Assembly (NCBI GenBank): GCA_003252375.1
Contig: QKEJ01000198.1
Span: forward strand, 1-35,427
Source: Halodesulfovibrio sp.
GTDB lineage: Bacteria; Desulfobacterota; Desulfovibrionia; Desulfovibrionales; Desulfovibrionaceae
Direction of reading: 5' to 3'
Length of the DNA stretch: 35,427 nt
Positions 4,768-13,166 of the stretch are shown in pieces; position 1 is the first letter of the stretch, and the number at the start of each line of letters is the position of its first letter. The position numbers were made by a program, and so were the translations under genes. Below the pieces are notes generated by a model. The model had not been told where the DNA came from. It searched no databases and saw only the letters and a program-made list of their open reading frames with translations.

Positions 4768-5352
4768 ATGCGCACAAACGACCACAGATTTCCATACCTT
4801 CTCATCTGCCTTGCCCTTGCATGCCTCATGTGTGCCTGGGGCGCCCCTGCGCGGGCCGCGGACCAGCAGATACGGCTGCGCGACTTTGTCCTCGACAACT
4901 CCGACGGCCAGATCGCCGTTCGTTTCGGCATAGGATTCACCGAGCTTGACTCCCTGCGCCTGATGCTCAAGGAAGGAGCCCGGGTCACGCTGACCTGCGA
5001 AGCAGCCCTGACCGAACCCGGTTCACTCTGGTTTTCCAACACGCTGAGCACGCAGGAACTGCACAGCGTGCTTTCCTACAACGTCCTGACGCGCGAATAC
5101 ATGATCACCCTCTCCGGACAGCCCACCCTGCACAAGAGCAACAGCCTCGTGAAGCTTCTGGCGGAAACATGGGCCGAACTGGCCCTGAACGTCGGACAGC
5201 TGGCCAACCTGACCCGGGGAGAGGAATACCGCGTTGACCTCGACATCCGCATGGCAAGCGACAACGTGCCCCCGTGGCTGGCCAAGACCCTGTTCTTCTG
5301 GTCATGGGACATTGCCCCGTCCATGCACTACTCCATGGACTTCACACTCTGA
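4768..5352 (+). CDS. DUF4390 domain-containing exported protein
   Basis: This 194-residue protein has a clear signal peptide: a basic start, a hydrophobic core 'LLICLALACLMCAWG', and a likely cut after 'ARA' near residue 31. The mature part is beta-rich, with the pattern of the DUF4390 family: 'IRLRDFVLDNSDGQIAVRFGIGF' in pieces, a central 'LTREYMITL', and an ending 'ALFFWSWDI..SM..SMDF'-like tail. The biochemical function of the family is not known. In many proteobacteria a DUF4390 gene directly precedes an NtrY-like sensor kinase, as here, where the gap to the kinase is only 14 bases. This suggests that it acts with, or is sensed by, that kinase in the envelope (inference). Confidence 0.85.
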   Translation: MRTNDHRFPYLLICLALACLMCAWGAPARAADQQIRLRDFVLDNSDGQIAVRFGIGFTELDSLRLMLKEGARVTLTCEAALTEPGSLWFSNTLSTQELHSVLSYNVLTREYMITLSGQPTLHKSNSLVKLLAETWAELALNVGQLANLTRGEEYRVDLDIRMASDNVPPWLAKTLFFWSWDIAPSMHYSMDFTL

Positions 5353-5366
5353 CGGGCCGGCAGCAC

Positions 5367-6650
5367 ATGGACGAGCAGCAGGAACAACACACCATCCGCG
5401 TGAGTGTCGCGGACACCAAGGAGCGCAAGCGGCGGCAACGCGAACTCATCCTCGCCGCCGTGGCCTTCCTGCTGGTCATCGCCCTGACATGGATCGAGCT
5501 CAACTATCTGGGTGTTGATTCCTACTTCTTCCTCGGCCTCTTCAACCTGAATTTCATTCTCCTGCTGCTGGTGCTGTTCATCGTCATCCGCAACGGGGTC
5601 AAACTCATGCTGGAACGCCGCCGCAGGGTGCTCGGTTCCCGTCTGCGGACGCGGCTTGTTCTGGCCTTCATGTGCCTTTCCCTCTTCCCCACCGTGCTCA
5701 TGTTCATGGTCAGCGCCCTCTTTGTGCAGACCTCCGTGGATTACTGGTTCAAGAACCAGGTGGAGCATTCCATGGAGCAGGCGCTCGAGGTGGGGCAATC
5801 CATCTATGCGGACTCGCGCGAACGACTCAAGCATCGCAGCCAGTTCATGATCGACGAGATCATCGAACGCCGCTTCGCCTGGGGCGGCAAGGCCATGGAT
5901 GAATACCTCTCCAAGAAGCTGGACGAATACGATCTCACCCTGGTCGGCGTCATCCGTCCGGACAGGCAGGAGCAGAACTGGCACGGACCACAGGCCTTCG
6001 CCAACGTCTGGGACGAGACCAAGGCGCGCATAAACTGGGAAAGCCTGGAAAAGCAGCCGCTTTTCTGGTCGCTCATCTGGCCCGGCGCCAATGACGACTA
6101 CGCCGTGGGCGTCATGCCCGTGGATGAAGGCAAGACAGGATACCTGGTGCTGGTGGAAAGCGTCGGGCAGGGGGTCATGTTCCGGCTGGACCGTATTGTG
6201 CGGGGCGTGGAGGAATACAAGAAGCTCAAGACCCTGAAGCATCCGCTCAAGGTCACCCTCTATTTCGTGCTGGGCGTGCTGACCCTGCTGATCATCCTCG
6301 GGGCCATGTGGTTCGGCTTCCGCCTTGCCAAGGAACTGGCTGCCCCCATCCTCGCCCTTGCCGAAGGCACGGAACGCATCTCCCGCGGTGACCTGGCCGT
6401 GCGCCTGGAGGATACGTCCACGGATGAACTGGGTGTTCTGGTCCAGTCCTTCAACCGCATGGCCGAGGACCTGGAGCAGAGCCGGGCCAGACTGACCGAC
6501 GCCAACATCATGCTCGGGCGCCAGAATTTCGAAAAGGAACAGCGCAACCGCTACATCGAGGCCGTGCTGGACAACATTGCCGCCGGGGTCATCTCGCTGG
6601 ATCCGGAAGGCAGCTCTCGCTGGATCCGGAAGGCAGCATCTCCACCATGA
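5367..6650 (+). CDS. NtrY-like sensor kinase, N-terminal sensor half (membrane, HAMP, truncated PAS)
   Basis: This 427-residue fragment carries the input part of an NtrY-type kinase. Hydrophobic segments lie near residues 28-50, 58-75 and 95-120, followed by a periplasmic-type region with 'YWFKNQVEHSMEQAL'. A last transmembrane helix near 300-325 leads into a HAMP domain ('APILALAEGTERISRGDLAVRL' in pieces, then 'TDELGVLVQSFNRMAEDLE'). The PAS domain begins at 'RYIEAVLDNIAAGVISLD' and is cut off. The last 12 codons are out-of-frame reading of the second repeat copy and the bases after it. No kinase core is present, so this product alone cannot phosphorylate. The ATG at 5367 is chosen because it starts just upstream of the conserved basic/TM region; its ribosome site is weak. 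Confidence 0.75.
   Translation: MDEQQEQHTIRVSVADTKERKRRQRELILAAVAFLLVIALTWIELNYLGVDSYFFLGLFNLNFILLLLVLFIVIRNGVKLMLERRRRVLGSRLRTRLVLAFMCLSLFPTVLMFMVSALFVQTSVDYWFKNQVEHSMEQALEVGQSIYADSRERLKHRSQFMIDEIIERRFAWGGKAMDEYLSKKLDEYDLTLVGVIRPDRQEQNWHGPQAFANVWDETKARINWESLEKQPLFWSLIWPGANDDYAVGVMPVDEGKTGYLVLVESVGQGVMFRLDRIVRGVEEYKKLKTLKHPLKVTLYFVLGVLTLLIILGAMWFGFRLAKELAAPILALAEGTERISRGDLAVRLEDTSTDELGVLVQSFNRMAEDLEQSRARLTDANIMLGRQNFEKEQRNRYIEAVLDNIAAGVISLDPEGSSRWIRKAASPP
6592..6637 (+). repeat. Exact 23-bp tandem duplication inside the kinase PAS region
   Basis: Bases 6592-6614 are repeated without mismatch at 6615-6637. Because 23 is not a multiple of three, the second copy shifts the frame by two and leads to TGA at 6648. 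Removing either copy restores the family reading frame. Perfect adjacent copies of this length can be gained or lost by replication slippage. Confidence 0.97.
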
Positions 6651-7597
6651 ACAAGGCGGCCGCGGCCATCTTCCACGTGGAGGCGCGGTCCCTGATCGGC
6701 CTCAACGCCCGCGAACTCCTGCGCGGCGAATATGCCGAACTGGTGGACGAGATGTACCTGCATTTCTCCACCATGCCCGAGAGCCACTGGCAGCGTCAGG
6801 TGGACCTGTACATGGGCGGCAGGGAGCTGAAGCTGCTGGTGAACGCCGTGGGGCTGCCCGCACGGGACACCGAGGAATACGGCATCGTCCTCGTCTTCGA
6901 GGACATCACCGAGCTTGAGAAAATGCAGCGCATGGCGGCATGGCGCGAGGTGGCCAAGCGCATCGCCCACGAAATCAAGAACCCGCTCACTCCCATCAAG
7001 CTTTCGGCGCAGCGGCTGCAGCGCAAGTACGGCGGCGAAATCGGCGACCCCATCTTCGAACAGTGCACGGACCTCATCGTACGTCAGGTGGAACATCTGC
7101 AGCAGATGGTGCAGGAGTTCTCGGCCTTTGCCAAACTGCCCGAGGTCAAGCCCAAGCCCGACCAGATCGAGCCGCTGGTGGAGGAAATCGTCTCCCTGTT
7201 CCAGCACAGCCACAGCCACATCAAGTGGGAGCTGGTCTTCCTGACCCCCATCCCCACCATTCCCATGGACAGGGAGGCCCTGCACCGGGCGTTCCTGAAC
7301 ATCATCAGCAATGCCGCAGAGGTACTGCACAACCACCCCGCCCCAAAGGTCACCGTCACCCTGCGCCACGACCGGCAGCTCGGTCTCGTGCGTGTCGACG
7401 TTGCGGACAACGGCCCCGGCCTGACCAAGGAAGAGCGCTCCCGCCTCTTCGAACCCTACTTCTCGAGAAAGAAGGGCGGCACGGGTCTCGGGCTGACCAT
7501 CGTCAAGTCCATCGTCAGCGATCACCGCGGCTATGTGCGGGCAAATCACGCCGAGCACGGCGGAACCATTGTCACCATAGAGCTACCTGTGGCATAA
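6647..7597 (+). CDS. NtrY-like sensor kinase, C-terminal catalytic half (PAS remainder, HisKA, HATPase)
   Basis: This 316-residue frame starts at an ATG that overlaps the TGA of the upstream half (ATGA), an arrangement that allows translation by reinitiation. It contains the rest of a PAS domain (about 1-90, ending 'LVFEDITELEKMQ'). Next comes the NtrY-type dimerisation helix 'AHEIKNPLTPIKLSAQRL' with phospho-acceptor His108, then the ATPase motifs: N-box 'NIISNAAEVL', G1 'DNGPGL' and G2 'GGTGLGLTIVKSI'. All residues needed for autophosphorylation look intact. As a soluble piece without the membrane input and HAMP it might be unregulated. Its likely partner is the NtrX-like regulator at 10021-11418. 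The nearest Shine-Dalgarno-like sequence, GGAAGG, is about 13 bases upstream, which is far. Confidence 0.8.
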   Translation: MNKAAAAIFHVEARSLIGLNARELLRGEYAELVDEMYLHFSTMPESHWQRQVDLYMGGRELKLLVNAVGLPARDTEEYGIVLVFEDITELEKMQRMAAWREVAKRIAHEIKNPLTPIKLSAQRLQRKYGGEIGDPIFEQCTDLIVRQVEHLQQMVQEFSAFAKLPEVKPKPDQIEPLVEEIVSLFQHSHSHIKWELVFLTPIPTIPMDREALHRAFLNIISNAAEVLHNHPAPKVTVTLRHDRQLGLVRVDVADNGPGLTKEERSRLFEPYFSRKKGGTGLGLTIVKSIVSDHRGYVRANHAEHGGTIVTIELPVA

Positions 7598-10020: not shown

Positions 10021-11418
10021 ATGCCAAGCAAAGCGCATATTCTGATTATTGACGACGAAGAAAGCATCCGATTCTCCCTGCGGGGGATTCTTGAAGACGA
10101 AGGGCATACCGTGGCCGAGGCCGAGACCGGTGAAGAGGGGCTGGACATGCTGAACAGCGAGAAGCCGGACCTTGTCTTTCTGGATATCTGGCTTCCCGGC
10201 ATAGACGGGCTGACGGCGCTGGCCACCATCAAGGAGCACGACAAGTCCCTGCCCGTCATCATGATCTCCGGGCACGGCACCATCGAGACCGCCGTCAACG
10301 CCATCAAGCGGGGCGCGCACGACTTCATCGAAAAGCCTCTGTCGCTGGAGAAGGTGGTCATCGCAGCCGCCAACGCCCTGGAGTTTCACAACCTGCGTCG
10401 GGAGAATCAGGCCCTCAAATCACGCATCGCCAGAGAGCACACCGTTGAGGTGACGGGCGAATCGTCCCCCATCCTTCAGCTGCGGGAACAGATCCAGCGT
10501 GTGGCGCCCACGGATGCCTGGGTTCTCATCACCGGTGAAAACGGCACCGGCAAGGAAATTGCGGCCCGGTCCATCCACGCCCAGTCCAAGCGCAAGGAAA
10601 AGGCGCTGGTGGCCGTGAACTGCGCCGCCATTCCCGAGGAACTCATCGAAAGCGAACTCTTCGGACACGAGAAAGGGGCCTTTACCGGTGCCGATCAGGC
10701 CAAGACCGGCAAGTTCGAGCTGGCGGACAACGGCACCCTGTTCCTGGATGAAATCGGGGACATGAGCATGAAGACGCAGGCCAAGATCCTGCGCATCCTG
10801 CAGGAACAGAGCTTTGAGCGCGTGGGCGGCAACAAGACCATGCGCGTCAACGTCCGCGTCATTGCGGCCACCAACAAGAACCTCGAGGAGCAGATCCAGA
10901 AGGGCAACTTCCGGGAGGACCTGTACTACCGGCTGCGCGTCTTCCCGCTCACGCTGCCGCCGCTGCGCACACGCGGCAAGGACATTCTGGTCCTGATCGG
11001 CGAATTCCACGACGCCATGGTGCGCGACCAGGGATTCAAGCCCCTCGACTTCACCAAGGATGCGGAACGGGCCCTGCTCGACTATCCGTGGCCGGGCAAC
11101 GTGCGTGAACTGAAGAACTTCGTGGAGCGCATGCTCATCATGTTTGCCGGACAGACCGTGGATGCCCTGGATCTGCCGCCGGAATTCGGCGCGGCCATCC
11201 GGAATGCGCCCCCCTGCGGCGCGGCGCTGCCCGAGCAGGGCATCGAACCCGGCGCCATGGACTTCAAGGCTGCCAGAAACGCCTTTGAAGCCGTCTTTCT
11301 GGAATCAAAACTCAGGGAGTTTGAAGGCAACATTTCCCGGCTGGCGGAAGCCATCGGGCTGGAACGCAGTTACCTGTACAGGAAGCTCAAGTCGTACAAT
11401 ATCCAAACCACCGAATAG
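10021..11418 (+). CDS. NtrX-like sigma54-dependent response regulator
   Basis: This 465-residue regulator has a receiver domain with Asp11-Asp12, phospho-acceptor Asp55 ('[10 protein letters not shown]') and Lys105. A sigma54-interacting AAA+ domain follows, with Walker A 'GENGTGKE' at 172-179, 'GAFTGA' at 219-224 and Walker B 'LFLDEIGDM' near 240-248. A Fis-type helix-turn-helix closes it ('[21 protein letters not shown]'-like, last 40 residues). The C-terminal '[11 protein letters not shown]' is typical of NtrX. All catalytic and GAFTGA residues are present, so it should activate sigma54 promoters. It would be phosphorylated by the NtrY-like kinase upstream. The start ATG at 10021 has GGAG 8 bases upstream. 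gpmA follows after 20 bases. Confidence 0.93.
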
Positions 11419-12326: not shown

Positions 12327-13166
12327 ATGCCTTCCATGACTCCGCTGCGCCGCCACCTGCACGATATCATATTCGAAGCGGAAACCCTGGCCGGCAAGGC
12401 GTTCGACATCCTTCTCATTCTCTGCATCGCCTGTTCCGTGACCGTCGTAATGCTGGACAGCGCCATACCGGCCGACGCCCCCGTTGCCCCGCTGCTGCGA
12501 TGGGCTGAATTCCTTTTCACGGGCCTTTTCACCATCGAATACGCCCTGCGGCTCTGGTGTTCACCAAGACCGGCAGCCTACGCCCGCAGTTTTTTCGGGT
12601 TGGTGGACCTGCTTTCCATTCTGCCGACCTGGCTTGTTCTTGCCTTCCCGGCCGTCCAGTTCTTTGCCCTGCTCCGCGTCCTGCGCGTCCTGCGCATATT
12701 CCGCGTGCTCAAGCTTGTTCAGTACGTGCATGAGGGAACACACATCATGCGGGCGCTCCGGGCCAGCCGCAAACGCATTACCGTCTTCTTTTTCTGGGTG
12801 GTCACTCTCGTCATTCTGTTCGGCGCCCTCATGTATGTGGTTGAAGGCGGGAAGAACGGCTTCACCTCCATTCCAAGAGCCATATACTGGGCCGTGGTCA
12901 CGCTCACCACTGTCGGGTACGGCGACATCGCCCCCCGGACGCCCATGGGACAAGCCCTTGCTGCTGTGGTCATGGTTCTGGGCTACAGCATCATCGCCGT
13001 TCCCACGGGCATAGTCACCATGGAAATGTCGAGGGTGGACGGGAACGAACGTACAGCCCTCAGCAACCGGGCCTGCCCCGGTTGCAAGAGCAGAAGACAT
13101 GACGAAGATGCCGCGTTCTGCAAGCTTTGCGGCACACCGCTCGCTGGGAACAATTTTTCCGCGTGA
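12327..13166 (+). CDS. Voltage-gated potassium channel with C-terminal zinc ribbon
   Basis: This 279-residue inner-membrane protein has six predicted helices. An S4-like segment at 117-129 carries Arg117, Arg120, Arg123, Arg126 and Lys129 at every third position, the classic voltage-sensor pattern. The pore loop holds the K+ selectivity filter 'TVGYGD' at 195-200, followed by the S6 helix. After S6 there is no RCK/TrkA-N domain. The last 35 residues instead form a four-cysteine zinc ribbon (Cys250, Cys253, Cys265, Cys268). The protein probably forms a tetrameric K+ channel, with the ribbon as a cytoplasmic assembly or regulatory element (inference). The ATG at 12327 has GGAG about 9 bases upstream. 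The 141-base gap before it shows no convincing terminator. Confidence 0.92.
   Translation: MPSMTPLRRHLHDIIFEAETLAGKAFDILLILCIACSVTVVMLDSAIPADAPVAPLLRWAEFLFTGLFTIEYALRLWCSPRPAAYARSFFGLVDLLSILPTWLVLAFPAVQFFALLRVLRVLRIFRVLKLVQYVHEGTHIMRALRASRKRITVFFFWVVTLVILFGALMYVVEGGKNGFTSIPRAIYWAVVTLTTVGYGDIAPRTPMGQALAAVVMVLGYSIIAVPTGIVTMEMSRVDGNERTALSNRACPGCKSRRHDEDAAFCKLCGTPLAGNNFSA

Follow-up and report, generated by a model that had tools for sequence, protein, structure and literature searches.

The window analysed here, a stretch of 35,427 bases, contains an exact tandem duplication of 23 bases that breaks the reading frame of a sensor histidine kinase gene. Judged by its domains, the gene is an NtrY-family kinase, and a broken member of the family as the sequence stands. 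The duplication is absent from every relative examined, and a short direct repeat lies across each of its breakpoints. We give about even odds that the duplication arose recently by slipped mispairing, in a single lineage of a sulfate reducer related to Halodesulfovibrio. Altogether, the site gives the impression of a commonplace slippage mutation of recent date, or of an error in sequencing or assembly, rather than of a demonstrated switch. Taken at face value, it is a further example of a private frameshift in a draft genome.

Organization of the broken kinase gene

The two copies of the unit were identical on re-checking, in agreement with the earlier note, and form the sole exact tandem duplication with a unit of at least 10 bases in the window; in 30 mononucleotide shuffles of the window, the longest exact tandem unit was 6 to 10 bases. 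In the Tandem Repeats Finder output the array spans 6590-6642 and counts 2.2 units, and CATCTC marks each outer edge. As sequenced, the kinase consists of two frames broken at the duplication, so that its domains do not lie in one continuous frame (Table 1). The sensor ORF spans 5274..6650 with an in-frame ATG at 5367, and its stop codon shares bases with the start codon of the catalytic half in an ATGA at 6647-6650; the stop and the overlap had both been claimed before, and both are present. Upstream of 6647 the catalytic frame continues without a stop for 73 codons, and ATG 6647 is its first start codon when ATG, GTG and TTG are considered. The kinase of 735 residues that removal of one copy had been proposed to restore is recovered by length arithmetic with the 23 bases uncounted, an agreement that concerns length.

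Table 1. Coordinates of the duplication, the two kinase halves and the putative partner in the window
Feature	Position	Strand	Remarks
First copy of the 23-base unit	6592..6614	+	Letter-for-letter match to the second copy
Second copy of the 23-base unit	6615..6637	+	Identical to the first copy; opposite a 23-base gap when the three nearest relatives are aligned
Left CATCTC repeat	6590..6595	+	Across the left breakpoint
Right CATCTC repeat	6637..6642	+	Across the right breakpoint
Sensor half	5367..6650	+	427 residues; NtrY_N and HAMP; stops inside the PAS domain at TGA 6648-6650
Catalytic half	6647..7597	+	316 residues; PAS from about profile position 20, HisKA and HATPase_c; start in the ATGA overlap
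Sigma-54-dependent response regulator	10021..11418	+	Likely kinase partner, from family and neighbourhood

Domain matches bear out the claim that an NtrY-like kinase has its frame broken within the PAS domain. The sensor half matches the Pfam families NtrY_N (9.4e-11) and HAMP (9e-15), both above the curated cut-offs, and the catalytic half matches HisKA (6.3e-12) and HATPase_c (1.8e-24), also above cut-offs. The PAS fold of the catalytic half is probably incomplete, because its PAS family matches start only at profile position 16-26. With the halves scanned apart, no NCBIfam cut-off was reached among the families listed (20 of 20, and the best 25 of 78), so that no equivalog among them names the kinase NtrY. 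Jointly, the sensor and catalytic frames cover the whole protein of a relative (query 1-474 and 459-785 of 785). The gene thus resembles the NtrY-family transmembrane sensor histidine kinases in the order NtrY_N, HAMP, PAS, HisKA and HATPase_c and in a nearby sigma-54 regulator; however, these kinases are unsplit in relatives, whereas here there are two frames with the break inside the PAS domain. The neighbourhood of ten ORFs also includes branched-chain amino acid transporter genes, a DUF4390 gene, an NAD-dependent epimerase and an HD-domain response regulator.

Distribution of the break among relatives

All nine other members of the genus that were searched have one unbroken frame across the gene, of 740 to 789 codons. 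Alignment with the three nearest relatives (81-82% identical DNA) has one gap, of exactly 23 bases. At the family level, the kinase was matched at 1e-80 in 145 of 288 genomes and at 146 places, the window's own genome included, with at most seven candidates scored per genome and the 143 genomes without a match being uninformative. The frame in the window is the shortest of the 146 (389); the other 145 are at least 547 long, enough to extend well upstream of the break, and none is broken at this point. Four of these places fall below 700 (547, 610, 657 and 679) and may be contig edges.

The 94 loci compared from relatives (L003-L096, in which some genes are represented twice) include two with an exact tandem unit of at least 12 bases, both more than 1000 bases upstream of the break point. 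The frame is short in four of the 94 through a contig edge and in one other, L095, which was considered as a second natural split and rejected, its frame having a run of unknown residues from Ns that was read as an assembly gap. The 23-mer is absent from the viral contigs searched. According to the earlier note, two copies in all related strains would argue against a recent or switchable change; on comparison, no relative examined has the second copy. On these alignments, the break is private to this lineage among the relatives examined.

Between the window and its three nearest relatives, pN/pS is 0.078-0.144 in the sensor half and 0.152-0.188 in the catalytic half, and among the three intact relatives themselves the values are 0.044-0.149 and 0.084-0.200, respectively; with pS at about 0.5, synonymous sites are almost saturated and the test is therefore coarse. 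Across seven genomes (408 columns in all for the sensor half and 317 for the catalytic half), the window has unique changes at otherwise invariant columns once in the sensor half and twice in the catalytic half, and the corresponding counts are 0 and 1 in genome G005, 1 and 2 in G006, and 8 and 6 in G003. By these measures both halves are under ordinary purifying selection, which would fit a recent break, an artefact, or two halves that both still work.

Origin of the duplication

Counting one copy only, the site holds two CATCTC repeats 24 bases apart, with each breakpoint inside one of them. Random breakpoints at 687,210 positions in 56 other stretches of the window's genome touch a repeat of at least six bases at an offset of 22-24 in 0.75% of cases, a criterion whose six-base length and one base of slack were set after the site was seen, and in 0.48% at an offset of 24. 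An arbitrary contig join would therefore rarely leave such repeats at its breakpoints, which favours slipped mispairing, either in the cell or during library preparation; the breakpoint microhomology leans towards slippage. The duplication site could also form a hairpin in single-stranded DNA (z -2.67; equalled in stability by 1 of 200 shuffles).

In the proposed mechanism, the CATCTC hexamers, which lie some 24 bases from each other where the gene encodes the PAS domain, would mispair, and the stretch would be copied twice with the loss of one base, adding 23 bases instead of the in-frame 24. It is the lost base that would make the unit 23 and break the frame. The full-length kinase would then no longer be made, a loss of function that we infer, and the sensor half would terminate within the PAS domain. 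Some catalytic half may arise by reinitiation at the fortuitous ATGA, free of membrane input.

Slippage, which we place in the cell and in the recent past by inference, is favoured by the identity of the copies and their absence from the nine genus mates and the other family places; against it, the unit is 23 and not the 24 expected of simple slippage, and the lost base must be assumed. Short frame-breaking tandem duplications are a general class of mutation that arises from slipped mispairing between short direct repeats. The present duplication shares with them exact adjacent copies, a six-base direct repeat at both breakpoints and occurrence in a single lineage; it differs in a unit one base under the repeat spacing, and its slippage would have to be presumed to have taken place in a cell. 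Among the literature matches listed for short or microhomology tandem duplications, NtrY, assembly duplication artefacts and phase variation, this case is undescribed.

Draft quality and a possible artefact

A serious rival to the slippage mutation, possible in our judgement though somewhat doubtful, is that the gene has one true copy and that the second came from a slipped or chimeric library molecule or from overlapping contig ends left unmerged. The window is a whole contig of a draft genome in 203 contigs that is 86.5% complete, another apparent frame break lies in a conserved enzyme gene within the compared sample of the draft (L149), and absence of the duplication from every relative examined is also what an artefact would give. 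On the other hand, an arbitrary join meets such breakpoint repeats in only 0.75% of cases, as given above, although slippage in library preparation would leave an equal mark.

Exact tandem units of at least 16 bases are rare, which argues against an artefact: two, including this one, occur in 725,997 bases of the window's genome and none in 1,120,000 bases of G005, a difference that means little at so few events. Units of at least 12 bases number eight in 701,350 bases of the window's genome (window excluded) and seven in 400,000 bases of G005, and the units of this size in the two genomes are nearly all multiples of three. Systematic duplication by the assembler, as a general fault, was rejected, the sole other exact unit of at least 16 in the 725,997 bases being one of 17 bases on L134. 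This second duplication lies at 12330-12440 of L134, where the DNA is rich in A+T and carries several inverted motifs of the form TTGCA...TGCAA, which by their sequence look like a candidate cluster of operator sites. Scaffold gaps were likewise rejected: the fetched stretches have none, and their Ns make up four whole contigs.

Comparison of contig ends provided a hint in the artefact's favour. A search for the assembly word length found no exact suffix-prefix overlaps of 15-300 bases among 102 contig ends. Five gap-free overlaps of 271-411 bases were found at 96.6-98.9% identity (L101/L105, L112/L134, L117/L133, L117/L154 and L132/L150), together with a sixth match, L136/L144, that is shorter and has one gap; differences of 1.1-3.4% between overlapping ends hint at mixed strains. 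Scored in the frame with the fewest amino-acid changes, the differences fall at third codon positions in 9 of 10, 8 of 9 and 3 of 4 cases in three pairs, but in no more than 2 of 4 and 2 of 8 for L117/L133 and L132/L150, which leaves three of the five pairs as evidence of strain variation. From these overlaps, the draft appears to mix two or more strains. Four contigs (L137, L138, L142 and L146, which are C81, C82, C86 and C90) are all N, 10,780 bases in total, and an alternative allele on such contigs would therefore go unseen.

The ATGA overlap and the two halves

If the duplication is real, the two halves might both be made from one message by termination-reinitiation, giving a soluble kinase freed of membrane input. 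Such a functional or adaptive split is in our view unlikely. The ATG in the overlap is the earliest start codon that the catalytic frame offers, and both halves show the ordinary purifying selection described above. In the three nearest relatives, the codon aligned to 6647 is CTC, CTG and CTC, all encoding Leu; at the aligned position ATG stands in 2 of 88 distinct sequences, which remained from the 94 loci after those with a match starting after residue 3, with no flank or with a repeated sequence were dropped. The start codon is therefore private to this sequence among its near kin in the set, and its origin as an old internal Met codon was rejected.

Chance is sufficient to explain the overlap. 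When 23-base duplications were simulated, with 2,945 trials in ORFs of the window and 30,381 in those of G005, an ATGA resulted in 8.7-14.1% of cases, an overlapping NTGA start in 31-34%, and some start at most 30 nt from the new stop in 69-72%. Because duplications so often make one, the ATGA here is unsurprising and needs no selection, and the suggestion that it is more than chance was not upheld. With about one in ten simulated frameshifts making such an overlap, caution is due in taking an ATGA at a frameshift as evolved coupling.

Other evidence also weighs against a functional split. None of the 145 other family places is split at this point, and the PAS domain of the catalytic half is probably incomplete, as noted above. 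The closest run resembling a Shine-Dalgarno sequence is GGAAGG, which ends 13 bases 5' of ATG 6647, a long spacing between such a run and a start codon. In its favour, ATGA overlaps can couple translation, as reported for 13 of 14 tested pairs (PMC6728339). The kinase resembles the coupled overlapping gene pairs of PMC6728339 in having its stop and start overlap as ATGA, but here the overlap arose within a single ancestral gene, at a rate accounted for by chance.

A hypothetical reversible switch

Gain and loss of one copy by slippage could in principle toggle the gene between the full-length kinase and the split halves, a reading that we hold to be very unlikely. The earlier note had raised an on/off switch of this kind, which found no support. 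Slippage can in principle remove one of two perfect tandem copies, and the CATCTC repeats stand at the same spacing in G003, which has one copy; however, the two-copy allele occurs in no relative examined, a 401-base query found one match to the locus in the genome bin (the all-N contigs apart), and to our knowledge a two-copy array is not typical of contingency loci. It is equally improbable to us that the two-copy allele toggles a tethered full-length NtrY against a coupled pair whose soluble core, freed of HAMP and most sensing input, drives the neighbouring sigma-54 regulator. If both alleles were shown to coexist, the locus would offer a straightforward test of slippage that uncouples a kinase from its sensor.

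Candidate frame breaks elsewhere in the draft

A census against G005 at 70% identity gave 123 candidates, comprising 94 intact, 12 at an edge, 14 otherwise partial and three in multiple pieces. Two of the three multi-piece candidates are this kinase, counted twice through overlapping stretches, and the third was read as a spurious upstream extension and set aside. At 50% identity there were 198 candidates: 139 intact, 17 at an edge, 31 otherwise partial and 11 in multiple pieces, the last comprising the same three, seven that were read one by one, and L102. Six of these seven were judged spurious or non-coding ORFs; the remaining one, L149, was taken as a conserved enzyme whose frame is apparently broken. 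A reverse census gave 127 candidates, with 89 intact and five in multiple pieces.

Relative to G005, the apparent break on L149 lies at about 2619 on the minus strand, near the start of an aminotransferase-like gene (a name judged from sequence), the remainder of which shares a single long ORF with the gene upstream. At about 13061-13140, L102 carries a degenerate array of units of about 10 bases that are GTTGTTCCGC-like.
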